Positions 109-36,895 of a stretch of 40,185 nucleotides of DNA are shown piece after piece. The position numbers and the translations under genes are program-made. Origin of the DNA: a virus; the IMG/VR virus record IMGVR_UViG_3300018432_000025, positions 1-40,185 of that record. One strand, written 5' to 3'. Numbering within the stretch: the first letter of the stretch is position 1; the number at the start of each line of letters is the position of its first letter. Below the pieces are notes generated by a model. It saw only the letters and a program-made list of their open reading frames with translations, ran no database searches and was not told the origin of the DNA.

Positions 109-993
109 CTACAAAGTCTTTGCATCGGGGGGCGGCTCCGCCCCATCCAAGCCAACCAAGTCTTGGTTCTTGGCCAGCAGCGCATCGTTCGTGTGAACGT
201 AGCGCATGGTCGTTTGAATGTTCGAATGGCCCAGGGCCTGCGAGGCGGCGTGCACGCCCACCTTCTCGCACAGCTCCGTGGCGTGGGCGTGCCGCTGCAT
301 GTAGAGGCACAGCTCCTCGGAGAGCTTGGCCCGGCGGCAAAGCCGCTTGTAGAGCTTGCTCAATCGTTGAGGCGTCCAGGCCCGCCCCTTCACGTCCACA
401 AACAGCGGCCCCTCGGTCCGCTCGCCCATCGCCTCGACGAGGATCGCCGCCAGCTTGGCTCCCACGCCAATCTTCCGCGGCTTGCCCGTATAGCTGGTCT
501 TGTGCTCCCGCAGGATGATCAGCCGCTTCTCGCGGTCGTAATCGCTGACCTGCGCTCCGGCGATTTCGCTGGGCCTCGCTCCGGACTGCCGCAAGGCGCG
601 AAGGATCAGGCGAAAGGCCGGCGGCGAAAGGGCCTCGACCGCTGCGTCCTCCGCGGCCGTCGGAATCCGCTCCCGCCTGCGCGGCGGCGGCTTCTCCAAC
701 TTCTTGAACGGTGGCTCATCGAGGAGCCCGCGGTCCACGGCAAAAGCGAAAAGCTTCTGCACGGCGACGGCGTTGGCGCGTCGCGTGTCCGCCGCCTTGA
801 GCGAGCCGTCCTCTCGCCGGTCGGCCCGGTGCAAGTGCGACTCGATGTCGCTCAGCCGGATCGACGCGAGCTTTTGTTCGCCCAGGCTCTCCAGGATCGG
901 CTTCATGCGGGACTCGTAGCTGCGCACCGTGTTCGGCTTGCGGCACTCGCGGCAGTGCGAGAGGAACAGCTTCACGAGCTTTCGAATCCGCAT
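109..993 (-). CDS. Tyrosine recombinase (phage integrase family), left-end copy
   Basis: 294-aa site-specific recombinase, expected to cut and rejoin DNA through a 3'-phosphotyrosyl intermediate. The N-terminal 1-100 region looks like a SAM-like core-binding domain. The catalytic domain shows Arg140 (GARPSEI), Lys165 (EHKTSYTG), Arg234/His235 in YMQRHAHATEL, His256 in LGHSN and the nucleophile Tyr265 in TMRYVH. The first His of the usual HxxR box is Tyr231, a common substitution. It lies downstream of a holin-like gene (3-base gap), far from the integrase at 15.7 kb, so it may serve another purpose such as resolution or cassette exchange. The family call is firm; the role is not. Confidence 0.9.
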   Translation of the reverse strand: MRIRKLVKLFLSHCRECRKPNTVRSYESRMKPILESLGEQKLASIRLSDIESHLHRADRREDGSLKAADTRRANAVAVQKLFAFAVDRGLLDEPPFKKLEKPPPRRRERIPTAAEDAAVEALSPPAFRLILRALRQSGARPSEIAGAQVSDYDREKRLIILREHKTSYTGKPRKIGVGAKLAAILVEAMGERTEGPLFVDVKGRAWTPQRLSKLYKRLCRRAKLSEELCLYMQRHAHATELCEKVGVHAASQALGHSNIQTTMRYVHTNDALLAKNQDLVGLDGAEPPPDAKTL

Positions 994-996
994 CGC

Positions 997-1347
997 TTAC
1001 TGCTCCCGCTCCCGCATGGATCGCAGCTCTCGCCGCAGGCCTCGCATGGCCAGCGTGTTCGCCTCGACGGCCGTGCGGATCTGGCTCAGCTCCTCGCGGA
1101 CCGTCGAGGCCAGGGCGGTGTTGGCTCGCAGCCAGGCGGCCAAGTCCGGCTTGATCGCGGCGAAGACTCGCCAGGCCAGCCAGAGCAAGGCGAAGAGGAT
1201 CGCCGCCGGCACGCCGACCACGGCCACGAATTGGCCGGCATCAAACGTATTGGCGGCCACGACGGCCGTCACGCCGACGGCCGCCGCGGGAGCGGCCAGC
1301 GTCGAGGCCGCGTCGTGAATGGCTTTCGAGATTGGACCCATCACCAT
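997..1347 (-). CDS. Holin-like membrane protein
   Basis: 116-aa protein with a moderately hydrophobic segment at about residues 18-33 and a strong membrane segment at about 40-63 (rich in V, A, L and W). A charged, coiled-coil-like C-terminus follows (75-116, Arg/Glu rich). This layout fits small phage holins or holin-associated proteins, but no specific family is recognised. It lies between a 25-aa membrane peptide and a recombinase, and downstream of a subtilisin-like protease, which suggests a lysis cassette. Two starts are possible (Met1 or Met3); a G-rich tract precedes both. Confidence 0.6.
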   Translation of the reverse strand: MVMGPISKAIHDAASTLAAPAAAVGVTAVVAANTFDAGQFVAVVGVPAAILFALLWLAWRVFAAIKPDLAAWLRANTALASTVREELSQIRTAVEANTLAMRGLRRELRSMREREQ

Positions 1348-1359
1348 GCGGCCCCCCGA

Positions 1360-1437
1360 TCAGTCGTCCAGCAAAGCGAACATCAGGCCGACGATGGCGA
1401 CGACCAAGACGCTCCAAAAAAGCAAGTGCGATAGCAT
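1360..1437 (-). CDS. Candidate 25-aa single-pass membrane peptide
   Basis: Short reading frame beginning MLSHLLFWSVLVV and ending in two Asp. It is almost entirely hydrophobic (one transmembrane helix, acidic C-terminus). A GGTGAG-like ribosome binding site lies just upstream of the ATG. It occupies the otherwise empty gap between the protease and the holin-like gene, on the same strand. It resembles the small second membrane component found in some phage lysis cassettes. It could be a chance frame, since it is very short. Confidence 0.45.
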   Translation of the reverse strand: MLSHLLFWSVLVVAIVGLMFALLDD

Positions 1438-1496
1438 CACGGCATCTCACCCCAGGGAAACGGCGAGCCGCAGAGCGGCTGCCCGGTGTTGATCTG

Positions 1497-2504
1497 TCAG
1501 GCCACCAGCTCGGCGGACCAGCGGAATCGCCGTCCGCCGACGAGCAGTTCGAGTTGCTCCTTGCCCGTCGGCGGCGGATCGGTCGGCTCGGGCTTGACCG
1601 CCTCGAGCCACTTCTCGGCCGACAGCAAACCCGCGCCCGTCTTGCGGTCCGGACCCGTCGGCCCCACGTCGATCGACGCGGCACGACAGCGAGCGAGCAT
1701 GGCCACGTGCGGCAGGAGCTGCACGCCGTTCGCCAAGTCCCGACCGATGAACAGCGCGAGCAGGCCCGTGACGATGGGAGCCGCCATGCTCGTGCCCGAC
1801 AGCTCGGCGAAGCCGCCGTCGAGGTAGAGGCTGCGGACGCGCACTCCGGGAGCGGCGCAATCCACGCTCGAGGGCGACGAAAAAGCGGCGGGCCGCTGGT
1901 CGCGGTCGAGGGCCCCGACGCTGATCGTGCGATTGTCGCTGGCCGGCCAGCTCACGTGGCGGTCGCCCTCGTTGCCCGACGCGCAGACGACCGTCACGCC
2001 GGCGGAGATCGCTGCGGAGATCGCTGCGGAGATCGACGGACTCTCGCTCGGCGAGCCCAGCGAGAGATTGATCACGTGGCTGCCTTGGGAGACGCACCAC
2101 GCAATGGCTTCGGCGATGGCCCGGTCGCTCCCCTCGCCGCCATCGCCCAGGGCCTTCGCGCTGAGGAGCTTGGCTCGGGGCGCGACTTGCGCGACCAGCC
2201 CGCTGACGTGCGTGCCGTGGCCGAGCTTGTCCCACTGGGCGCTGCGGCTGGAGGTGAAGTCCTTGGCGGCGATCACCTGCGCTAGGAGGCCCGTGCTCTG
2301 CACGTGCCTGGCGTCAACGCCGCTGTCCACGACTCCGACGACCACGCCGTTGCCGCGGTGGCCGGCGTCATGTGCCGCGGGCGCGCCCACGGCCGCCAGG
2401 TGCCACGGCTGATCAGCGGCCAGCGGCATCGACGAGAAGCGTCGATGAATCGTGATCGTCGGCAGGCCCACGCGGACGCGCGGGTTCGGTTGTGGAAATC
2501 GCAT
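1497..2504 (-). CDS. Subtilisin-like serine protease (peptidase S8)
   Basis: 335-aa peptidase with the full S8 catalytic set: Asp60 in VVDSGVD, His96 in GHGTHVSG, oxyanion Asn178 in ASGNEG and Ser239 in SGTSMAAP. The start at MRFPQPN is chosen because an AGGCAGGA ribosome binding site lies just before it; the longer upstream frame overlaps the neighbouring gene and is not protein-like. There is no signal peptide and almost no propeptide, so export would need another route, such as the adjacent holin-like protein. It overlaps no other gene and is followed by two membrane proteins. A cell-envelope-degrading lysis role is inferred; a virion protease or a host-interaction enzyme is possible. A 12-bp tandem repeat encodes part of the helix before Asn178. 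Confidence 0.92.
   Translation of the reverse strand: MRFPQPNPRVRVGLPTITIHRRFSSMPLAADQPWHLAAVGAPAAHDAGHRGNGVVVGVVDSGVDARHVQSTGLLAQVIAAKDFTSSRSAQWDKLGHGTHVSGLVAQVAPRAKLLSAKALGDGGEGSDRAIAEAIAWCVSQGSHVINLSLGSPSESPSISAAISAAISAGVTVVCASGNEGDRHVSWPASDNRTISVGALDRDQRPAAFSSPSSVDCAAPGVRVRSLYLDGGFAELSGTSMAAPIVTGLLALFIGRDLANGVQLLPHVAMLARCRAASIDVGPTGPDRKTGAGLLSAEKWLEAVKPEPTDPPPTGKEQLELLVGGRRFRWSAELVA
2002..2035. repeat. 12-bp tandem repeat inside the S8 protease gene
   Basis: Nearly three perfect copies of GCGGAGATCGCT in tandem. On the coding strand they encode repeated Ile-Ser-Ala-Ala units (about residues 157-168) just before the strand carrying the oxyanion Asn. The reading frame is preserved because the unit is a multiple of three. 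Confidence 0.85.
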
Positions 2505-2514
2505 GGAGTCCTGC

Positions 2515-2835
2515 CTAGCGAGCGGCGGCCAGGTTGAGCAGCACGGGAATGAGCGGCGCGAGCAGCTCGTACAACTGACGGAGCTTGTCGAGGTCGAGCC
2601 CCGAGGCATGCACGGCCTGAGCCTCGACCGGGGAGCAGCTTGCGAAGCCCTGGACCAGGCCGACGGGGAAGTCGGCCAGAAGATCAAGGAGCTGGTCGCC
2701 CAACGATTTCAGGGCGGCCCATTTGTCGTGAACGCCGACGGCCTCGTAGACCGCCGTCGCCGTGGCGAAGATCCGCGGCAGGTCCGCCGAGTGATTGACG
2801 GCCCAGCGGAGAAATTGGTAATAGCCGACTTGCAC
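2515..2835 (-). CDS. Hypothetical protein upstream of the protease
   Basis: 106-aa protein starting at a GTG (Met-Gln-Val-Gly-Tyr-Tyr) preceded by GAGG. It is mainly helical with a hydrophobic C-terminus (residues about 87-103, Leu/Ile/Val/Ala rich). It ends 10 bases before the protease start, so the two are likely cotranscribed. A run of heptamer repeats lies just upstream of its start. No family recognised. Confidence 0.6.
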   Translation of the reverse strand: MQVGYYQFLRWAVNHSADLPRIFATATAVYEAVGVHDKWAALKSLGDQLLDLLADFPVGLVQGFASCSPVEAQAVHASGLDLDKLRQLYELLAPLIPVLLNLAAAR

Positions 2836-2845
2836 GAGGGCCTCG

Positions 2846-2880
2846 GAGATTTGAGATTTCAGATCTGAGATTTGAGAGAG
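2846..2880. repeat. GAGATTT heptamer array, copy A
   Basis: Five consecutive 7-base units (GAGATTT, GAGATTT, CAGATCT, GAGATTT, GAGAGAG) in the leader of the 2515-2835 gene. Related arrays occur at 18900, 24390 and 27576, all with the same strand orientation. Confidence 0.9.
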
Positions 2881-4058: not shown

Positions 4059-4244
4059 TCATCGTGGCTGATCCTTCCACAGCGGGCCGAGGTCAATCTC
4101 GGGATTGCGGGGCTTTTGGAACGATCCCGGGCAGAGCTTCGTCTCCTTCTCGTCGGGATGGGGCGGCACGATCGTGCCGCGGTCGCTGCCGTACATCCAC
4201 CCGCAATGCGGGCACACCATTTCGATCACAGTTGCTTGGGGCAT
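4059..4244 (-). CDS. Small CxxC protein
   Basis: 61 aa, start MPQATVIEM. It has a CPHCG pair near the N-terminus and a further Cys in KLCPGSF, giving a possible three- or four-ligand metal site. The start is fixed by a strong AGGTGAG six bases upstream. That leader (4241-4268) is nearly identical to the one of the 6741-7034 gene. Confidence 0.6.
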   Translation of the reverse strand: MPQATVIEMVCPHCGWMYGSDRGTIVPPHPDEKETKLCPGSFQKPRNPEIDLGPLWKDQPR

Positions 4245-4268
4245 GTCTCTCACCTGGTGATAGGGTTG
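4241..4268. repeat. 28-bp duplicated translation leader, copy 1
   Basis: 26 of 28 bases match 7031-7058. On the coding strand it reads CAACCCTA, then CACCAGGTGAGAGAC, then ATGC. It thus holds the ribosome binding site and start codon of the gene ending at 4059. Confidence 0.85.
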
Positions 4269-6741: not shown

Positions 6742-7034
6742 CACTCAGTCTCCGCGGGCTCGCGTTCGGGCATGACGGCCTTCGCCGGCCCAAGTTGCAC
6801 GCCAAATGCCTGGTCGTAGCCCGCGAGCCAGTGAAGTGTTTCATGGAAGTTGTAGGCTTGAGTGGCGATGACCCTGCAAATCTCGACTGCGATGAGCGGA
6901 TTGTGGCCGCACTCGAAAGCCATGTGCCCGCTGTCACCGCAAACGGCGCAACATGCGCCATCTGGCACGAGCTGCTGCTTCGCGTTTTGCAGGGCCTCGA
7001 TCGCCTGGTCGTACTGATGTTCGGTAAATCGCAT
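6741..7034 (-). CDS. Hypothetical protein with CxxC pair
   Basis: 97 aa, start MRFTEHQYDQ set by AAGTGAG in the duplicated leader. A Cys cluster CCAVCGDSGH followed by FECGH gives a possible zinc site, then a helical C-terminus. Probably a small DNA- or protein-binding phage protein; no family assigned. Confidence 0.65.
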   Translation of the reverse strand: MRFTEHQYDQAIEALQNAKQQLVPDGACCAVCGDSGHMAFECGHNPLIAVEICRVIATQAYNFHETLHWLAGYDQAFGVQLGPAKAVMPEREPAETE

Positions 7035-7058
7035 GTCTCTCACTTGGTGTTAGGGTTG
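7031..7058. repeat. 28-bp duplicated translation leader, copy 2
   Basis: Partner of 4241-4268 with two mismatches. It carries the ribosome binding site and ATG of the 6741-7034 gene. The two genes downstream are unrelated in sequence. Confidence 0.85.
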
Positions 7059-7365: not shown

Positions 7366-7605
7366 TCAAAAAAGGATTCGCTGACCGACGGCATCGCGAC
7401 GGCGCGTCGAGATGCCGCGGCGGTCTGCCTCGGCTTGGAGGATGCGGTGCTCGTAGGGCATGGTTCCACGCTCGAGAAGCCATCGCACCCAGTAATTCAA
7501 TTCGCGGTCCGTCAGGCGGGACGCGACCGATCTCAGGTCGCGTCCCTCTCGTTTCGCGCGCACATCCGTTTCCCACGCGAGCGGGCGAATGTCGGCCGGC
7601 CTCAT
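7366..7605 (-). CDS. Small hypothetical basic protein
   Basis: 79 aa, rich in Arg. The middle reads LTDRELNYWVRWLLERG, an amphipathic helix pair. It lies four bases after the repeat-tailed gene, so coupling is likely. No family recognised. Confidence 0.55.
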   Translation of the reverse strand: MRPADIRPLAWETDVRAKREGRDLRSVASRLTDRELNYWVRWLLERGTMPYEHRILQAEADRRGISTRRRDAVGQRILF

Positions 7606-7608
7606 AGA

Positions 7609-8186
<578 letters not shown>

Positions 8187-8190
<4 letters not shown>

Positions 8191-8471
8191 TTGCGGGCCT
8201 CCCACGCTTCACGCGCTCGATCGGTCACGTCGGCGACGGCGGTTACTCCGTTCAACTCGACCCGCGGCGCCATCGCCCCGATCTTGCTTGTCCCGGTCGG
8301 ACCGGTCTCGGCCAGCTCCAGCCAGCCTCGGGTTGTGCCCCAATAGATCGCGCAGCGAGCGTTGGTCAGCGTGACCGCCCGCCGTTCGTCGTCTCGGCTG
8401 TCAAGGTGTCCGTAGAACACACCCCGGAACTCCGTGGTCACGATCACAGCACGGACATTCGACTTCGCCAT
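8187..8471 (-). CDS. DUF6948-like phage protein
   Basis: 94 aa. The pattern VRAVIVTTEFRGVFYG, then LTNARCAIYWGTT, then LAETGPTGTSKIGAMAP and VTAV matches, from memory, the small conserved family DUF6948 found in many phages. The function of that family is not known to me. Overlaps of about four bases with the next gene and 28 bases with the upstream one mark tight packing. A two-layer beta fold is likely. Confidence 0.75.
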
Positions 8472-11560: not shown

Positions 11561-12619
11561 TCAAAAGAGGGAAAGCTGCCGCTCGAGCGGCTCGGCGGGA
11601 ACGAACGAGGGAAGCTTGGCGAGGGTGCTGTCGATCAGCCGGCGATCGGCGTAGCAGTCGGCCAAGAGGTTTTGGCCGTGGCTGTTGGACCGGTGCCCCA
11701 GGCTGAGGCTCGCCGCCAGGGGGTTTTCCGCGGCCATCTCCGTCGCGTGGCTCCGGCGGAGGGCATGGAAGCCAGAGAGGCGGCTCGACTTCGGATCGAG
11801 GCCGGCCAGCGTCACCAGGCGATCCCAAGCGTCGTCCAGCCGGCGGCGATGGACGGGCCAGGGAAAGCAGCGGGGATAGCCCAGATTGATCTTGGCCAGA
11901 TGGGCCTGAGCCTCGACCGAGAGCCGGGCCGTATGCGCCCGGCGGCGGCCTTTCATCGACTCCTTGGGCACGCGAATCTCGCTGGTCTCGAAGTCGATCC
12001 AGGACCAACGCAGCTCGAGCAGCGTGTTGATTCGCAGCCCGGTCGTGTAGCCCACGACGAGTAGCGCACGCCACCAGTGCACCGGCGGGATCAGCAGCTT
12101 GGGCCGCGTCATCCGCTCCGCGGCGGCGTAGAGCTGCCGCAGCTCGTCGAGCGTCGGCGCCTCGGGCTCGTGCGGCTCGGGATCGGGAAGCGGCACGGCG
12201 GGCGGATCGATCAGCCGGGCGCCAGGCCGCCGCTCGCGACGCGGGCCAGTGGCGGCGAGCACCGCGCCGATCCGCAGGGCGTGCTTGCGGCGGGTGCCTG
12301 CGGCCAGGCGGTCTCCGCGCCGGCCCGGCGCCTCGGCCAGGCCGCTGGTGAAGCGGGCGACGGTCGCATCGTCGATCGACCGCAGCGAGGGCTCGCCCGT
12401 GAGCCGCGCCCACCAGCGCAGCGCCTCGCCATAGCCGGCGAGCGTCGCCGCATCCGGTGGACGCGGCCGGCCACGCAAGACCACGGGCGTGAACCAGCGG
12501 GCGTAAAACTCCGAGAGCGTCCAGTCGGCGGAGGGTTTTCCCTCGCTGGAGGATTCCTCCGAGCTGGCCGAGTCCTCCTCGTCGGCGGCGTAGAGCCGCA
12601 GGGAGATTGCTGCGCTCAT
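11561..12619 (-). CDS. Tyrosine recombinase (phage integrase family), early-region copy
   Basis: 352 aa with the complete active site: Arg196 (TTGLRINTL), Lys223 (MKGRRR), His285 and Arg288 (FHALRRSHAT), His309 (SLGHRSN) and Tyr323 (CYADRR). An acidic Ser-rich N-terminal 30 residues precede the core-binding domain (35-125). It overlaps the next upstream gene by four bases and so is expressed as part of the early operon rather than next to an attachment site. A housekeeping role such as dimer resolution, or a second mobile element, is possible. Confidence 0.9.
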   Translation of the reverse strand: MSAAISLRLYAADEEDSASSEESSSEGKPSADWTLSEFYARWFTPVVLRGRPRPPDAATLAGYGEALRWWARLTGEPSLRSIDDATVARFTSGLAEAPGRRGDRLAAGTRRKHALRIGAVLAATGPRRERRPGARLIDPPAVPLPDPEPHEPEAPTLDELRQLYAAAERMTRPKLLIPPVHWWRALLVVGYTTGLRINTLLELRWSWIDFETSEIRVPKESMKGRRRAHTARLSVEAQAHLAKINLGYPRCFPWPVHRRRLDDAWDRLVTLAGLDPKSSRLSGFHALRRSHATEMAAENPLAASLSLGHRSNSHGQNLLADCYADRRLIDSTLAKLPSFVPAEPLERQLSLF

Positions 12620-14265: not shown

Positions 14266-15069
14266 TCACTTGGGGATCGGAACACGCTCGGCAAACAAAA
14301 CCGTCTTCGACCCTCCAATTGCTGTGGTGTAGGTTTTTGTGCCGGAGATTTTCCAGGCCTTGCCTTTGGAGCGGTAAGTCCGTCCATCAACGATGCCAGC
14401 CGTTGAGGTTCGCATCCAAACCGATTCTCCAGCCCAGTCGCCGATCATGTTGTCCTTGTCAATAACCTGAATCACTTCCACGTCAAAAGGCCACTCGCCG
14501 AATCTTCCAACCTTCGGCGGATGGGGAAGCGTCGGAATCCACGCGGGGCCCGCGGTGCGGACGGCGAGAAGCACTCGCTCCAGCCTTGCGATCTCGCCCT
14601 CGAGTCGATTGATCTGGGTTTCCTTGAATTGTTTCGATGGGAAGGCGACCCGCCTTTTGTCGCCCGTTCCCGTTGTGGATATTCCACCGACCTGCGGGTT
14701 GATGCGGCCGGCCTTATAGTCCTTTAAGAGATCTTCACTGCTGCGAATTTTCGCCCTGGTGCTTTCGGACGCGCGGCCCCTCAACGGCTCACAATATTCG
14801 AGGAATTCCTTGTAGAGCCCGTCGGACTTGATCAGCCGAACGTGCCGCCGGTCGCCAAAGGAAAGCTCGTCCAGCGGAACGCTCAGCTCTTGGCCGTCCG
14901 GTTTTCGCAGTTTCACCGCGTTCCCGTCGAGGCTGATGAACTCAGCCTCAGTCTTGACCTTCTCGGTCTTGTCGAGCCACTCTCGGGCGCGAGCAGCCGG
15001 AGAGCAGAAGTGCAGCAGCGCGGCCAGCGCGCAGACGACGCCCAACAGGGCGGTGTGAGTGGTGTGCAT
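14266..15069 (-). CDS. Exported SHD1-domain protein (planctomycete type), likely moron
   Basis: 267 aa from MHTTHTALLG, chosen because GGAGGAG lies directly upstream and the next 20 residues form a signal peptide (hydrophobic core, then PAARA). Residues about 29-78 match the SLA1 homology 1 domain (REWLDKTEKVK...AEFISLDG...VPLDELSFGDRR), which is enriched in planctomycete secreted proteins. The rest (about 80-267) is unassigned. Terminators flank it on both sides, so it is an independent unit inside the phage genome. A role in lysogenic conversion or host surface modification is inferred. Confidence 0.8.
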   Translation of the reverse strand: MHTTHTALLGVVCALAALLHFCSPAARAREWLDKTEKVKTEAEFISLDGNAVKLRKPDGQELSVPLDELSFGDRRHVRLIKSDGLYKEFLEYCEPLRGRASESTRAKIRSSEDLLKDYKAGRINPQVGGISTTGTGDKRRVAFPSKQFKETQINRLEGEIARLERVLLAVRTAGPAWIPTLPHPPKVGRFGEWPFDVEVIQVIDKDNMIGDWAGESVWMRTSTAGIVDGRTYRSKGKAWKISGTKTYTTAIGGSKTVLFAERVPIPK

Positions 15070-15156
15070 GGACTCCTCCACCAAGGAACGACGACCGGAT
15101 TTCGACCTATCGTAATGCGCGCCGGCGCGGTTCGCCACGAAAAGTGCGCATGAAAA

Positions 15157-15680: not shown

Positions 15681-16634
15681 ATGAGTCACAGCCCAAGCCC
15701 AGGGGCGGGCAAAGGATGGGGCACCTTTGGAACCGAGAGGCAGATGGGCAACCCAATTTCACTCTATGCGCTGATCGATCGCTACGCAGAAAATCATGAG
15801 GAGGGGCTTTCGAAAGGGGCGAAGGATCAGCTTCGTTGGGCCGTGGGGGCCTGGCAGCGGTGGGCGGGCAAGCCCCTGACGACAGACGATTTCCAGCGGG
15901 AGACTTTCAACGGATACGTCGATTGGCTCAAGGAGAACCGGGCCGCCGACACCGTGCGGACTCGCCGCGGCAACCTGCTGACGCTCTGGCGGTTTGCCTT
16001 CGAGGAGGGGCTGACGGACAACGCTCCGCGAAAGATCCGGCGTCTCAAAAAACGCCGGACGATCCCCACGGCCTGGACGCCCGAGGAGGTCGATCACCTG
16101 CTCGAGATGGCCGACCAGGCCACCGGACGATTCGCCACGACGCAGATCCCCAGAGACGTGTTTTGGAGGTCGCTGATCCTCACGGCGTGGGACAGTGCCT
16201 TGCGGCTCGGCGATCTGCTGGCCCTGGAGCGCACTGCGATCGTCGGCGAGAAGATCGTCGTCCGCCAGAGCAAGACGGGCGACGACGTGCTTGTCATGCT
16301 GCGACCGCAGACGCTCGCGGAGATCGAACGCTGCTGCGCGGATCCGCCCCGCCGGCTGATCTGGCCCCTGTGGTGTCGGCGAGATCAGTTTTATGTGGCC
16401 TTTGGACGGCTCGTCTCAGACGCCAAGATTCGGCCTGGCACATTCAAATGGATCCGCCGGGCGAGTATAACTGCGGTCGAACGCCAGCAACGTGGAGCAG
16501 GCACCCAGCACGCCGGCCATCGCACTCGGGCCGTCACCGAGGCGAACTATATCGACCCGCGGCAGCTCGACGAGGATCGTCCGCAGCCCCCGCCGCTCAA
16601 GCGACAAGCACCCGATGAGCCCCCAGCAACTTGA
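15681..16634 (+). CDS. int: Tyrosine integrase of the lysogeny module
   Basis: 317 aa, or 296 aa if it begins at Met22 (position 15744), which has the better ribosome binding site (GAGAGGCAG). The N-terminal core-binding domain covers about 25-110. Catalytic residues are Arg175 (ALRLGDLL), Lys198 (RQSKTGD), Arg259/260 (KWIRRASIT, with Lys256 in the first His position), His280 (AGHRTRA) and Tyr290 (EANYID). It is one of only two plus-strand genes, divergent from the SHD1 gene and convergent with a small HTH gene. A candidate attP lies upstream, so this copy is the most likely true phage integrase. Confidence 0.9.
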   Translation: MSHSPSPGAGKGWGTFGTERQMGNPISLYALIDRYAENHEEGLSKGAKDQLRWAVGAWQRWAGKPLTTDDFQRETFNGYVDWLKENRAADTVRTRRGNLLTLWRFAFEEGLTDNAPRKIRRLKKRRTIPTAWTPEEVDHLLEMADQATGRFATTQIPRDVFWRSLILTAWDSALRLGDLLALERTAIVGEKIVVRQSKTGDDVLVMLRPQTLAEIERCCADPPRRLIWPLWCRRDQFYVAFGRLVSDAKIRPGTFKWIRRASITAVERQQRGAGTQHAGHRTRAVTEANYIDPRQLDEDRPQPPPLKRQAPDEPPAT

Positions 16635-17160: not shown

Positions 17161-19755
17161 CTAGGCGGCTCGCTTGGCGTGTCTTTCGGCGAGCGCCGCA
17201 AGCTGGCCCTCGATCTCGGGGCCGCGGACGCCCCAGCCATGCTCGCGCTCGACCCACTCCCGCGCCGCCTGGCTGGCCGCGGCGACGTCGGCCCCGAGCA
17301 GCTCCCGCATCGTGGCGGCCAAGTCCTCGGGCCGCACGTCCCAGGCATCCACGATGCGACCAAACTTCTCGCGGGTGGACGTGGCCGGCAAGAGGCGCCA
17401 GGCGTTGTGCTCTCGCATCGGAGCGGCGTCCGTGGTGATCAGCGGCAGGCCGGCGGCCTGAGCCTCCAGGAGCTGAAGTCCCAGCCCTTCGACCCGCGAC
17501 GGCGCGAGCAGCGCATCGCCCTCGCGGTACAGCTCCGCCGGCGAGCGGGCCGCGCGGACCTCGACGTGCGCCGGCCAGCGGTCGCGGCGGCCAAGCTGCG
17601 AATAGACCAAGAGCGGAATCTCCGGCGCCAGTCGCGCCGCTCGGGCTACGACGAGGGAGCCTTTCCGCTCGTTCACGCCGCCGCGGCCTTCGACGAACAA
17701 GAACCGCTCGAGCTTCTCACGTGTGCGAAAGGGGAATTGCTCCACGTCGATCGGCCAGGGGACCAGCTCCGAGCGATAGCCGCGAGAGAGCAGCAGCTCG
17801 TGCGTGTGCCGCGTGGGCGAGAGGAAGAGATCGACGCTTTTGAGCCAGCCCCCCAGCCCCTCGGGAAGCCACTCGTGATTGGGCACGCAGACGATCGGCA
17901 CGCCGGCCTTCTTGGCCAGGGCGAGCAGATTGGACTTCGTCACCTTGCGCTCGCAAAAGAGCAGCACGTCGATCCTCCGCAGCCACTCCTTGAGCTTTCC
18001 CTCTTCCTGCGGACATTTCGCCGGGCAGACGTGCAGGTCGCAGTCCTCGATCGCGCCGCGGACCGGCAGCGTCGGCAGCGTCGAATGCCCCTTAATGAAC
18101 CAGGTGTCGGCCACGTGGGCGGCCAGGCCGCGGTTCTGATAGCCCAGGCCCGTGGCGGTGTTGTAGCCCACCAGGCCCACGCGCGGACGCTTTCCCTTGG
18201 AGGCCGGAGCCGGCTTGGCTGGTGGGATTTTTGTAGCTACAAGCGGGACGTGGGCAGGGGCGGCCACAAGCCAGCAGTGATGCTCATAGGCCGCTTGGCC
18301 GCGGCGGTAGGCGGGGTGACGGACGATCGTCACGCGATAGCCCAACGAGGCCAGCAGGCGGGAGGCTTCTTCGCGGTAGGCCGCGGCATGGCACTCGACG
18401 ACCAGCTTGGGCCGGCAGCGCTTCAGCGTCTCGACCGCGCCTTGCAGCACGCGGACCTCGGCGCCCTCGGTGTCGATCTTCACAAAATCGACCTCGACCA
18501 GGGCCATCCAATCGAGCGGCAGGGCCGGCACGGAGACCAGCGACTTGGGCTCCGCGAAGCCTTCATGCACGTCGGCGCCCTCGATCGCGGACTGATCATC
18601 GCGCACGCGGAGCGTGACCTCGCCCAGCTCCGACCAGGCCGCCGCTCGGTGAACCTCGACGTTCACCAGCCGCCGCTCGCCGATCGCCGCGGCCATCGCC
18701 TGCACCGGCTCGATGGCGACGACCCGCGCAAACCGCTTGGCGAGCGAGGCGGTCCAGGCGCCGGTGTTCGCGCCGACGTCGATTGCCACGCGGCCTCTCG
18801 CCGGCACGTGCGCGACGAGCCAGGACTCCCAGCTCTCCAGCCCGGCGTCGCTGCGGCGGGTCTTGCCGGGCGGCAGGGGAATGCGAGCGGGCAGCGGCGG
18901 AGATTTGAGATTTGAGATTTGAGATTTGAGATCGGCCAGGAGCGTGCGAGCGTCGAACTGCTCGCCGGGAAAACTTGCGGAGCGGCGCCGGCCGGTGTTC
19001 GAGCCGTGGCCGACGGTGCTCGTGTCGCCGATGTGCTGGGCCAGGCTGGGCGTGTGGTGGTATTGCGGCACGCGGCGGCGGATGCAGTGGTGCGCCACCG
19101 CCGTGTCGATGTGCTTGTGGCCCTTCTTGCTCAGCCGGTGCGCCAGGAATTGCTTGTCGGCGAGCAGGGCGTGCAGAATCGCGGGAGTGAAAACCCAGGC
19201 CAGGGCGCCCATGCCCGAGAGCCGAGGCGCCACGGCGTGGAAGCCGTCGCTCTTCGCGTCGCGACCGCGGGCCGTATAGAGCGAGATCAGGCCGTCCTTG
19301 GGCAGAGGCGAGCGCTCCAGGTACTCGCGCACGCCGCGACAGAAGACCGTGTCGTCCTGGATCAAGAGCAGCCGCTGGGCCGTCGGATGGCGGAGCCACA
19401 GCTCCAGGGCCGCAAGGAGCCAGTTGGCGTAGATCCCGGAGCTGGTGTTGCGGCGGATCGTAGTGAGCTTGAGCCGTTCGATGCGCGGCGGATCGACCGG
19501 GCCATCGGCAAAGAGATAGGCTTCGCGCCAGCCGGCGTCGGCAAGGCTCTGGAGTGTGCGGGCGAGCGTGCCTTGCTTGCGGGGGGCGGTGGTCACGCCC
19601 ACGGCCCAGACCACGCGCGGCGCTCCGGCCGGCCGCGGCGGCCCGGGCGGATCGAGCCGTGCGGCGGGCGAGGTCTTCACCGCGACGTGAGGCGTTTGCT
19701 TGGGGCGCTCGATGACCGGTTCGCCGCGGCGGGCGGCCGTCAGACGCAGTGTCAT
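17161..19755 (-). CDS. Glycosyltransferase / FkbM methyltransferase / GT4 glycosyltransferase fusion
   Basis: 864 aa in three parts. Residues about 45-265 resemble a nucleotide-sugar glycosyltransferase, with LLIQDDTV (DD at 134-135). Residues about 310-500 are an FkbM-type SAM methyltransferase: VAIDVGANTGAW (324-334), VAIEPV and VDFVKIDTEGAEV (422-434). Residues about 525-864 look like a GT4 transferase with the EX7E pair Glu756/Glu764 (SRVEGLGLQLLEAQ). Probably decorates the virion or modifies the host surface. The linker at 276-286 (DLKSQISNLKS) is encoded by the dispersed heptamer repeat, suggesting joining of once-separate genes. It ends the tail operon. Confidence 0.85.
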   Translation of the reverse strand: MTLRLTAARRGEPVIERPKQTPHVAVKTSPAARLDPPGPPRPAGAPRVVWAVGVTTAPRKQGTLARTLQSLADAGWREAYLFADGPVDPPRIERLKLTTIRRNTSSGIYANWLLAALELWLRHPTAQRLLLIQDDTVFCRGVREYLERSPLPKDGLISLYTARGRDAKSDGFHAVAPRLSGMGALAWVFTPAILHALLADKQFLAHRLSKKGHKHIDTAVAHHCIRRRVPQYHHTPSLAQHIGDTSTVGHGSNTGRRRSASFPGEQFDARTLLADLKSQISNLKSPPLPARIPLPPGKTRRSDAGLESWESWLVAHVPARGRVAIDVGANTGAWTASLAKRFARVVAIEPVQAMAAAIGERRLVNVEVHRAAAWSELGEVTLRVRDDQSAIEGADVHEGFAEPKSLVSVPALPLDWMALVEVDFVKIDTEGAEVRVLQGAVETLKRCRPKLVVECHAAAYREEASRLLASLGYRVTIVRHPAYRRGQAAYEHHCWLVAAPAHVPLVATKIPPAKPAPASKGKRPRVGLVGYNTATGLGYQNRGLAAHVADTWFIKGHSTLPTLPVRGAIEDCDLHVCPAKCPQEEGKLKEWLRRIDVLLFCERKVTKSNLLALAKKAGVPIVCVPNHEWLPEGLGGWLKSVDLFLSPTRHTHELLLSRGYRSELVPWPIDVEQFPFRTREKLERFLFVEGRGGVNERKGSLVVARAARLAPEIPLLVYSQLGRRDRWPAHVEVRAARSPAELYREGDALLAPSRVEGLGLQLLEAQAAGLPLITTDAAPMREHNAWRLLPATSTREKFGRIVDAWDVRPEDLAATMRELLGADVAAASQAAREWVEREHGWGVRGPEIEGQLAALAERHAKRAA
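18900..18932. repeat. GAGATTT heptamer array, copy B (inside a gene)
   Basis: Four perfect GAGATTT units plus a partial fifth, translated in frame on the minus strand as DLKSQISNLKS. It lies between two domains of the fusion protein. Confidence 0.95.
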
Positions 19756-24389: not shown

Positions 24390-24424
24390 GAGATTTCAGA
24401 TTTGAGATTTCAAATTTCAGACTT
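24390..24424. repeat. GAGATTT heptamer array, copy C
   Basis: Five units (GAGATTT, CAGATTT, GAGATTT, CAAATTT, CAGACTT) filling the 38-base gap between the chaperone stop and the tape measure start. Confidence 0.9.
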
Positions 24425-26939: not shown

Positions 26940-27572
26940 TTACGGCGTGGAGTCGGCGAGCACCAGCACCTTGAGCGTGCCGGCCAGCGTCGAGGAGCCG
27001 TTGCTCGCCATCGCGTAGGTGATCACGTCGCCCGTGAAGGGATTGGTCGCCCCGCCCGCGATGTCGTGGACCTGCGGCACATTGCCCACCAGGTCCACGG
27101 CGACGATCTCGTCGTCTGCCGCGTCGAAGAATGAGACGTGCCCCTTGCCGCCGGTGGACGTGTACTCCAGCGAGACGCCGATCAGCTCCGCCGCGTCGCC
27201 GTCGATGGTGGCGTTGACCAGGACCTGCTTGACGATCGTCACGGCCGTGGTGGCGATGGGGAAATTGTCTCCCGCGCCCACGTGCCCCGCGTCGGTCCCG
27301 ACGGTCACCAGGTTGCCGCTGACGCTGGAGACCTCCATCCCGTAGCGGCGGCCGGCGGCCCAGTAAACATCGACCTTGTCGCCTTGGAGCAGGCCGTGGT
27401 TGGCCGCCGTGACCACGCCCGTGTCGTTGTCGGTGCGGGTGCTGAGCGTGCCCGTGGCACCCACGGGCAGGTCGATCACGAAGGCCTCCGGATGGTCCGC
27501 CGTGCGGGTGATCGTCTTGCTGATCGAGACGCCAGCGATCGAAAGATTGATGGCGAAAGTGCCGTTGGGCAT
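26940..27572 (-). CDS. Structural protein of the connector region (hypothetical)
   Basis: 210 aa, beta-rich with many Val, Thr and Gly (NLSIAGVSISKTITRT, TTAVTIVKQVLVNATIDG). No family recognised. It lies between the head-closure and gp10-like genes. Start preceded by a heptamer array, with no Shine-Dalgarno motif. Could be a decoration or minor tail protein. Confidence 0.65.
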   Translation of the reverse strand: MPNGTFAINLSIAGVSISKTITRTADHPEAFVIDLPVGATGTLSTRTDNDTGVVTAANHGLLQGDKVDVYWAAGRRYGMEVSSVSGNLVTVGTDAGHVGAGDNFPIATTAVTIVKQVLVNATIDGDAAELIGVSLEYTSTGGKGHVSFFDAADDEIVAVDLVGNVPQVHDIAGGATNPFTGDVITYAMASNGSSTLAGTLKVLVLADSTP

Positions 27573-27575
27573 TTT

Positions 27576-27617
27576 GAGATTTCAGATTTGAGATTTGAGA
27601 TTTGAGATTTGAGATTG
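27576..27617. repeat. GAGATTT heptamer array, copy D
   Basis: Six units (GAGATTT, CAGATTT, then three GAGATTT and GAGATTG) directly before the 26940-27572 gene start and just after the head-closure gene stop. Confidence 0.95.
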
Positions 27618-32716: not shown

Positions 32717-33391
32717 CTAGAAAACGCCCGCCGAGACCGCCACGGCGCGGGCCCGGACGGCCACCGCTTCGCCGCGGGAAGCCTCGCTCTGGCGGCTTTC
32801 TTTCCAGCGCTTGTGATCCGCCAGCAGCGCCTCGATGTCTTCAGCGGAGCGTCCCGAAACGTCCACCGAGGCGCCTTGGTAGGCCGGGAAGGTCACGGGC
32901 GCCACGTCGAGCAGATCGACGTCCTCGATCTGGCGAATGTCGGTCTCCTCCTCTTGAATCCAGACGACCCGCTTGGCCCAGAACGAGAAGCTCGAGCCGG
33001 TCACATCGCCCCGCTTAATGCTCGTCAGCGTGTCGCGCCCAGCCTGGGTGTCAGGCGGGTCGATCTCGTAGCGCAGGCCGGCGGCGTCGAGCGACAGCCG
33101 CAGCGTGCCGCTCTTGGTCCGCCCGAGGATCTGTGAGGGGTTGTGGTTGAACAGGCCCCGCACGTCGTGGGCCTCCTTCAGGGCGCGGTCGAAAGCGCCG
33201 GGCATGATCCGCTCGACGATGCGGCCGCACATGCCGCGGTAGAGTTCGTATTCCGTGCCAGCGTCGCCCGCGCGGTAGTAGACCGCGGCCACGCCGGTGA
33301 TCTTCTCGCCTTGGCCATCGGCGCGGGCCTCGGCGCGAATGGCCGCCGCGGCGGACGGGAGGAAGCGTCGTTCTGTGAGATTGGTGGTCAT
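32717..33391 (-). CDS. HK97-type prohead protease
   Basis: 224 aa. The likely catalytic His83 sits in GLFNHNPSQILG, and Ser133/134 in DVTGSSFSF, with the upstream ERIMPGAFDRAL characteristic of the family. It processes the capsid delta domain during maturation. It overlaps the portal gene by four bases. 232 bases separate it from the capsid gene and hold nothing convincing. Confidence 0.9.
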   Translation of the reverse strand: MTTNLTERRFLPSAAAAIRAEARADGQGEKITGVAAVYYRAGDAGTEYELYRGMCGRIVERIMPGAFDRALKEAHDVRGLFNHNPSQILGRTKSGTLRLSLDAAGLRYEIDPPDTQAGRDTLTSIKRGDVTGSSFSFWAKRVVWIQEEETDIRQIEDVDLLDVAPVTFPAYQGASVDVSGRSAEDIEALLADHKRWKESRQSEASRGEAVAVRARAVAVSAGVF

Positions 33392-34992: not shown

Positions 34993-35168
34993 TAAGCCTT
35001 CGGCTCCTCATAGCAGAGCAGGGCGGCGGCGAGGGCGACAAAGCCGGTCAGGATCAGGGCGACCCGCCAGTCGTAGCAGGCGACGCCGGCCAGGATTGCG
35101 GCCACCCCAGCCGCGAACACGGCGAGGCAACGCTGGTTGGAATCGAGCGCGGGCAGTTTTGGTTTCAT
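34992..35168 (-). CDS. Small two-TM membrane protein in the packaging operon
   Basis: 58 aa with two membrane segments (about 14-31 CLAVFAAGVAAILAGVA and 36-52). Its ATG overlaps the TerL stop (ATGA), and its own stop overlaps the portal start (TAATG). Translationally coupled on both sides. Function unknown; such small membrane genes are unusual between terminase and portal. Confidence 0.75.
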   Translation of the reverse strand: MKPKLPALDSNQRCLAVFAAGVAAILAGVACYDWRVALILTGFVALAAALLCYEEPKA

Positions 35169-36895
35169 ATCAACTCCACGGGGTTTCCAGGGCTGCCATC
35201 CTCGTCGCCGGCGCCGTCGCGGATGGCCAGGGCGGACGCCATGATCGCCGCCACGACGGCGTCGATCTTGAGGCGGGACTTCTTTTTGTTGGGCTTGATG
35301 TTGCCGGCCGGGTCGATGTCCACGACACAGTTGCCGACCATCCAGGCCGCGGCGGGATTGCCGCCGTGGCGGATCCTTCCGCTGGCGACCCGCCGCTCGA
35401 ACTCTTTGCTCGGCGTGTTGAGCGTGGCGTACCCCTGGCGGAACTCGATCACCGGCAGGCCGTCGTATTCGCCCAGCTCCGTCACGAGCTGGGAGGCATT
35501 CCACGGATCGTAGGCCACGGCCTGCACGCGAAGCGTGTCTTCGAGGCAGCCGGCGAAGCGCTCCGCGACGGGCTGGCCGCGCTCGTCGAGCACGACGCCC
35601 GAGATGTCGCGGCGAATCCAGGCATAGTCGATCGAGTTGCCGGTGGTCAGCGTGAGCCAGCCGTCCTTGGCCCACTGGCGAAGCGGCACGCGCCACGCCT
35701 CCTCGCGATCCTTGAGGTTGTCCGCCGGGAGGTAGAGCCGCCACGCCAAGGCGAGCAGCTCGCCGACCCACCAGGCGATCGCCAGCGCGGCGACGTCTTG
35801 CACCGTGGCCAGATCGAGCCCCAGCCAAACCTCCGTGCCTGCCTCGGGCCAGGCGTAACGCGGATCGCCGCAGGCGTCCCACGCGGCGCGGGAGAGCCAG
35901 GGATCCTCGCCGCAGTCCACCCAGCGGTTGCAGATGAACCGCTGGAACTCTCTGATCTTGCGCGGCGTCTGCTTCGCGGCGTCGCAGTTCTCCTGCAGCT
36001 TCTGCACATTTCCAAAGCCCTCGCGTAAGCCAGGGTTGGCCTCGAGCCAGCCTTCCGGATCGTCCCACTCTCGCTCGGGCGCCGCCTCAGCGATGAACGC
36101 GAAATGGGCCATCGAGTAGTGCTCGCCGTCGAGCAGCCGCTTGGCGTACTCGTACTCTTCGTAGCCCACCGAGTGCATGTCGTCGCCGGCGGTGGTGATG
36201 ATGAAAAAGAGCGGCTGCCGCCGGGCGATGTCGCCATAAATCAACGCGTTGAAAAACTCCTTGTCGCGCCAGCGGTGCAGCTCGTCCACAATCAGCAGAT
36301 GCGGGTTCTTGCCGTCCGCCGAGTCCGCGTCGGAGGCAATTGCCTCATACCAAGAGCCGGTGGCGTGATGGACGATTCGCTTTTGGCTGTCGATGCGCCT
36401 GAGGATCCGCGACAGGTGCGGGCTATCCTTCACGCAGCGGCTGGCCTTGCGGTAGATGATGCTTGCCTGGTCGCGATCGACCGCGGCGGAGTAGGCTTCG
36501 GCCTCCTCTTCGCCGTCGGCGCAGATCATGTAGGGCGGCAGGCCCGAGAGGACCGTGCTTTTGCCAGACTTCTTGCCGGTCGTCACGAAGGCGCGGTTGA
36601 ACCGGCGGCGCCCGTCGGGCCGCTTCCATCCGAAGATCGGGCCGAGCACGTCGCGATACCACCACTGGAGAAGCTCGAAAGGCTTCATTCCCGAGCCGGT
36701 CGCTTCGATCTCCTCGGCTGACTTGGGAACGCGGAGGAAGACTTCGTAAAAGGTTCGCACTCGCTCGGCGGCTGCGAAGTCCACCCGGCAGCCTTCGACC
36801 AGTGCGCGCTCGTCGTGCGGCCGCTCGATCGGCCAGGGCCAACCCGCGTTGCGTGCATCGATCTTGAGCTGTGCCAGGCTCTTCGCGTTTCTCAT
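35165..36895 (-). CDS. terL: Terminase large subunit (TerL)
   Basis: 576 aa DNA-packaging motor. The ATPase domain shows Walker A TTGKKSGKST (105-114), Walker B LLIVDE (200-205) and coupling motif ITTAG (233-237). The nuclease domain begins near GLDLATVQD, with the metal ligand Asp361. Family fit to the HK97/P27-associated TerL (Terminase_1 type). Four-base overlaps with TerS and the small membrane gene. Confidence 0.95.
   Translation of the reverse strand: MRNAKSLAQLKIDARNAGWPWPIERPHDERALVEGCRVDFAAAERVRTFYEVFLRVPKSAEEIEATGSGMKPFELLQWWYRDVLGPIFGWKRPDGRRRFNRAFVTTGKKSGKSTVLSGLPPYMICADGEEEAEAYSAAVDRDQASIIYRKASRCVKDSPHLSRILRRIDSQKRIVHHATGSWYEAIASDADSADGKNPHLLIVDELHRWRDKEFFNALIYGDIARRQPLFFIITTAGDDMHSVGYEEYEYAKRLLDGEHYSMAHFAFIAEAAPEREWDDPEGWLEANPGLREGFGNVQKLQENCDAAKQTPRKIREFQRFICNRWVDCGEDPWLSRAAWDACGDPRYAWPEAGTEVWLGLDLATVQDVAALAIAWWVGELLALAWRLYLPADNLKDREEAWRVPLRQWAKDGWLTLTTGNSIDYAWIRRDISGVVLDERGQPVAERFAGCLEDTLRVQAVAYDPWNASQLVTELGEYDGLPVIEFRQGYATLNTPSKEFERRVASGRIRHGGNPAAAWMVGNCVVDIDPAGNIKPNKKKSRLKIDAVVAAIMASALAIRDGAGDEDGSPGNPVELI

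Follow-up and report, generated by a model that had tools for sequence, protein, structure and literature searches.

A protease operon at the low end of the record

The stretch of DNA analysed here (the window) covers the whole of an IMG/VR virus record of 40,185 bp. Scans with Pfam and PHROG profiles revealed an HK97-type head module (HNH, TerS, TerL, portal, protease, and capsid genes), a tail module that includes the tape measure gene, and an early region. At the low end of the record, five minus-strand genes lie in a row with intervening gaps of 10, 56, 12, and 3 bp and encode, in order, a 106-aa helical protein, an S8 protease, a 25/26-aa membrane peptide, a 116-aa transmembrane (TM) protein, and a tyrosine integrase. 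A first-pass annotation of this DNA had described the protease and two membrane genes as consecutive on the same strand, and ORF coordinates and hydropathy bear this out; absent from that description were the 106-aa gene 10 bp upstream and the integrase gene 3 bp downstream of the 116-aa gene. On a circular map, which assumes closure of the record, the cassette is flanked by the early region on one side and, downstream, by the packaging genes with TerL. The relevant features are as follows.

109..993, minus strand: tyrosine integrase, 3 bp after the 116-aa gene (PF00589, E = 1.1e-19)
997..1347, minus strand: 116-aa membrane protein (hydropathy)
1360..1440, minus strand: predicted 26-aa single-TM peptide, 25 aa if read from ATG (ORF and hydropathy)
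1497..2504, minus strand: S8 (subtilisin-like) serine protease, 335 aa (Pfam PF00082)
2515..2835, minus strand: 106-aa all-helical protein, c34 family (c34 profile match)
2846..2877, minus strand: (AAATCTC)n heptamer repeat directly upstream of the operon
32717-33391: gene at the head-protease position, separate from the S8 gene
35165..36895, minus strand: terminase large subunit, packaging module (PHROG TerL, E = 1.4e-141)

The protease ORF matches Pfam Peptidase_S8 (E = 9.5e-38) and the PHROG family 'protease' (E = 4e-58), and in the PDB it is closest to subtilisins, intracellular ones among them (E about 1e-40). Its active site is complete, with D60, H96, and S239 joined by the oxyanion residue N178, and the protein thus carries the Asp-His-Ser triad and oxyanion Asn in S8 context that define peptidase family S8. 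The triad falls at exactly the positions given in the first-pass annotation, which had also called the protein an S8 protease without a signal peptide; the profile and PDB matches agree with this identity, and hydropathy revealed no hydrophobic segment at the N terminus. We compared the catalytic residues with those of 78 other phage S8 proteins, noting that the relatives were retrieved by pattern searches built on the Asp and Ser motifs, such that conservation of these two residues is partly built in. As in intracellular subtilisins (PDB 2WV7 and 2X8J), the S8 fold and full catalytic site are accompanied by a short N-terminal extension (~30 aa) and neither a signal peptide nor a large pro-domain. 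Unlike those enzymes, the window protein is encoded by a phage, where a 106-aa helical partner and membrane genes accompany it. A further trait of the intracellular subgroup is a LIPY/F-type motif in the N-terminal extension. The LPPY-type version seen in many relatives is only vaguely recognisable in the window protein (LPTITI); in its strict form it occurs in 21 of the 79 phage S8 proteins, the window protein not being among them.

The c34 profile (14 proteins) matched the 106-aa ORF alone among 440 ORFs (E = 1.1e-6; next best 1.9, best shuffled 4.3). The window therefore contains what we define here as the pair, namely a c34-family gene directly upstream of an S8 gene on the same strand, with a 10-bp gap. 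At least 14 further phage contigs likewise have a gene for a helical protein of 106-140 aa immediately before S8. The best-conserved partner of S8 is this upstream helical protein and not the two downstream membrane genes. Its predicted model consists of six helices (pLDDT 71), and the C terminus is hydrophobic. A fold match of this model to a membrane-localisation domain was disregarded (E = 0.72).

The 26-aa ORF begins with GTG and contains one TM stretch (hydropathy 2.79 over residues 6-24); the peptide, whose translation is predicted, would be holin-like by size only. The 116-aa protein has a strong hydrophobic stretch at residues 40-58, a weak one at 13-31, and then a charged coiled-coil-like tail, an architecture of TM helix and charged tail that makes it a putative holin-like protein. 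It yielded no significant Pfam or PHROG family, and neither small membrane protein matches a holin family in these collections. Membership of the 116-aa protein in the c49 TM/coiled-coil family was considered and rejected because the c49 profile does not find it. Among the 56 main called genes of the window, hydropathy identified these two small genes as the only clear membrane proteins; beyond these, it flagged one protein with a signal-peptide-like segment (14266-15138) and, within the S8 protein and a 553-aa protein, marginal internal stretches.

The heptamer repeat upstream of the operon recurs at 18900-18931, 24390-24410, and 27576-27617, all four copies having one orientation. The repeat directly precedes the start codons of the 106-aa gene, the tape measure gene, and the gene at 26940-27572, and one of the four copies falls within an 864-aa ORF. 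Its presence at the operon and two tail-region genes is suggestive of late co-expression, but it may equally be a neutral repeat. The 864-aa protein (17161-19755) carries FkbM methyltransferase and glycosyltransferase domains and adjoins tail genes.

Search for an endolysin in the window and its relatives

Well-studied double-stranded DNA phages finish infection with a peptidoglycan-cutting enzyme. The first-pass annotation had seen no recognised endolysin in the window, and our Pfam and PHROG scans of the called ORFs, many of which have no assigned function, likewise returned no lysozyme, amidase, transglycosylase, or endopeptidase match. SLT and Phage_lysozyme profiles run over the whole record gave no match, and the same profile collections revealed no muralytic catalytic domain in the S8 protein, which is thus not recognisable as a peptidoglycan endolysin.

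Similar results were obtained for related phages. G041, whose genome is probably complete given its 48-bp terminal repeat, has no muralytic Pfam domain in its 59 proteins (S8, recombination, and nuclease families were matched) and no muralytic family among the best 25 of its 78 PHROG families. For the circular plasmid pPLIM01 (see below) and for G050, which has a 127-bp terminal repeat, no known endolysin is present among the best 25 Pfam families, where weaker matches could be hidden. Under identical settings, Amidase_2 was found in none of the 25 records of the S8/relative set versus 14 of 20 other HK97-type IMG/VR phages, a contrast that is indicative only because the 20 control phages are related to each other. 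The SLT and Phage_lysozyme profiles were empty in both sets (25 and 20 records) and therefore discriminate nothing.

Host, protease slot, and S8 loci in other phages

A planctomycete host, as proposed in the first-pass annotation, is well supported by protein comparisons. A search of plasmids with a papain-like protein led to pPLIM01 (NC_014149.1; locus L289 in our set), a 37,010-bp circular plasmid of Planctopirus limnophila DSM 3776 that carries a full HK97-type phage plus ParB-like and integrase genes. Its proteins share 44% (integrase; 275 aa, E = 4e-75), 50% (HNH), 38% (capsid), 34% (portal), and 34% (TerL) identity with those of the window, and several further tail and connector proteins are common to both. 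On these identities, pPLIM01 is a phage-plasmid related to the window record; the literature searched contained no paper that mentions it by name. Moreover, the secreted-looking protein encoded at 14266-15138 contains an SHD1 domain, which we take to be planctomycete-associated and which is absent from 14 control genomes. A terminase scan of genomes returned no planctomycete, and single-sequence scans of viral contigs with the S8, 116-aa, and capsid proteins gave no matches. The window carries three different tyrosine recombinase-like genes (109-993, 11561-12619, and 15681-16634) in 40 kb, and pPLIM01 has two, the second of which matches 11561-12619.

The comparison with pPLIM01 extends to the slot upstream of the packaging genes, which is occupied by S8 in the window. 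Both elements encode a protease and TM genes upstream of HNH/TerL. In pPLIM01, however, the enzyme is papain-like (E = 5e-18 to the c18 family) and carries a TM segment at its N terminus; its gene lies just upstream of HNH/TerL, flanked by a TM/PKD-like gene and another TM gene. In G058, a closer relative of the window (prohead protease 61%, capsid 41%), the slot encodes a signal-peptide trypsin-like protease with an H/D/S triad and GDSGG (DegQ match, E = 8e-4) together with one TM gene and one gene for a TM/coiled-coil protein. The corresponding slot of G061 (integrase 44%) contains four TM genes and a candidate protease that we tentatively regard as papain-like because it has a Cys motif and weakly matches a PDB entry (E = 0.013), although the family profile does not match it. 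S8 is absent from G058 and G061, and none was seen in pPLIM01; the distant relative G059 has no obvious protease in the slot. The strongest hint that this slot is under selection for proteolysis as such is the exchange of unrelated protease classes within it.

Beyond this lineage, 80 IMG/VR loci were retrieved with an alignment of phage S8 proteins. A small TM gene is an immediate same-strand neighbour of S8 in 27 of 55 dereplicated loci versus 4.1 ± 1.7 expected from random genes of the same loci (0 of 2000 draws reached 27). Membrane genes such as the two noted in the first-pass annotation, both of which contain TM stretches, are thus found beside phage S8 genes more often than by chance. 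In G041-type phages (56-60 kb), the cassette adjoins a serine integrase and has the order 106-like protein, S8, small TM protein, TM protein with a further domain, 316-aa protein, and short TM/coiled-coil protein. Gln, Cys, His, and Asn residues arranged as in papain are invariant in the 316-aa protein, whose low-confidence model matches cathepsins (best E = 1.3e-4). In three large phages (L182, L184, and L208; 101-190 kb), a papain-like gene, several TM genes, and the S8 gene are lined up within a baseplate/tail cluster; S8 is likewise embedded among baseplate and tail genes in L205/L206 and lies among large structural or packaging-type genes in L192. In Bacillus, Moorella, and Paenibacillus elements, S8 resides among early or DNA-metabolism genes.

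The Firmicutes-like phage L251 places S8 between a coiled-coil TM protein and Amidase_3 (E = 1e-17), followed by a weak holin_5_2 match. As in the window, the neighbours of S8 include a TM protein with a coiled coil and one resembling a holin; unlike the window, L251 also encodes an N-acetylmuramoyl-L-alanine amidase. Judging by this arrangement, S8 can occupy a true lysis cassette, there alongside a muralytic enzyme. The search for protease plus membrane genes that the first-pass annotation had proposed finds them recurring in related phages, with proteases of several classes. What began as a guess from one genome is now a repeated pattern, testable in a culturable strain. Planctomycete-type cytochrome c genes occur near S8 in two loci, with PSCyt1 in L199 (14323-15210) and a related protein in L176 (7573-8691).

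Possible roles of the protease cassette

We consider the chance that the operon is a protease-based lysis or envelope-attack cassette of a planctomycete phage to be just short of even. The protease would hold the place usually taken by a peptidoglycan-cutting endolysin. S8, a protease of the intracellular-subtilisin type, would be synthesised in the cytoplasm, and the N-terminal extension, the 106-aa partner, or both may suppress its activity or attach it to the membrane. The two membrane proteins (25 and 116 aa) would permeabilise the inner membrane late in infection, whereupon S8 could reach the periplasm and cut wall and outer-envelope protein, contributing to lysis. In this scheme, we infer all five of late timing, holin activity, export, substrate, and lysis. 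The arrangement resembles the lambda S-R-Rz holin-endolysin cassette in that small membrane proteins adjoin a signal-less soluble hydrolase and in its slot upstream of the packaging genes on the circular map. It differs in that the hydrolase is a protease rather than a muralytic enzyme, the holins are putative, and an integrase gene is part of the operon.

In favour of a lysis cassette are the tight same-strand operon, the conserved 106-aa/S8 pair, the enrichment of small TM neighbours, the lack of a recognised endolysin in the window or its complete relatives, and the other proteases in the same slot. Against it count the integrase, which is atypical for a late lysis unit, the S8 matches to intracellular subtilisins, the early or DNA-metabolism setting of S8 in Bacillus and Moorella phages, the absence of any holin family match for the 116-aa protein, and the G059 slot without an obvious protease. 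The first-pass annotation had reached the lysis reading partly from a premise of weak planctomycete peptidoglycan. That premise is unsafe: planctomycetes, including P. limnophila, possess peptidoglycan, and the older claim of a proteinaceous wall is treated critically in a review (PMC5147048). A wall hydrolase is therefore still expected. The other grounds for the reading, namely protease identity, membrane neighbours, lack of a recognised endolysin, host, and recurrence, hold.

A broader proposal, which we regard as possible though doubtful, is that temperate planctomycete phages have swapped the muralytic endolysin for interchangeable proteases from unrelated classes (S8, papain-like C1, or trypsin-like S1, in some cases a pair of them), which would occupy a conserved lysis slot, with envelope proteolysis as the lysis mechanism. 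We found no protease-based lysis system of planctomycete phages in the literature searched. If true, the proteases of planctomycete phages would represent a previously unrecognised class of lysis effector, a load-bearing role of protein in planctomycete envelopes, a long-debated question, would be suggested, and genetic tools for the phylum could follow. Because pPLIM01 resides in a culturable type strain, the idea is directly testable.

Three other explanations were weighed. The foremost, which we judge unlikely, is that an intracellular-subtilisin-like S8 and its 106-aa partner target proteins of the host or the phage within the cell, serving takeover, anti-defence, or control of the lysogenic switch via the adjacent integrase, with the membrane genes being incidental or a tether. 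The missing signal peptide, the intracellular subtilisins among the best relatives, the early-gene setting in the Bacillus, Moorella, and Paenibacillus elements, and the integrase within the same operon all fit this explanation. However, it does not account for the strong enrichment of small TM neighbours or for the failure to find an endolysin otherwise, and in relatives the slot holds proteases from other classes that are secreted or anchored in the membrane, which points to extracytoplasmic targets.

Rather less probable is lysogenic conversion, whereby exported proteases and membrane proteins from a resident prophage or phage-plasmid would alter the host surface for superinfection exclusion, nutrient scavenging, or competition. 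Such a role would suit a cassette that adjoins an integrase, the exported protease types in relatives, and the planctomycete cytochrome c and PKD-type secreted proteins in related modules, but the window S8 has no export signal of its own, and the S8 and C1 genes within the baseplate/tail cluster of the large marine phages suggest late expression. Finally, a virion-associated protease that cuts the host envelope at entry or matures the capsid or tail is improbable; S8 does lie among baseplate/tail genes in L182/L184/L208 and L205/L206 and among structural or packaging-type genes in L192, yet in both the window and the G041-type phages it is distant from the structural genes, and the window has a separate gene at the head-protease position.

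Two further repeats were observed in the window. A tandem 12/18-nt GC-rich repeat spans 7537-8064, in the gene at 7609-8205, and a 28-nt repeat, 93% identical between its copies at 4241-4268 and 7031-7058, lies at the starts of two small genes and is possibly a shared regulatory or ribosome-binding element.
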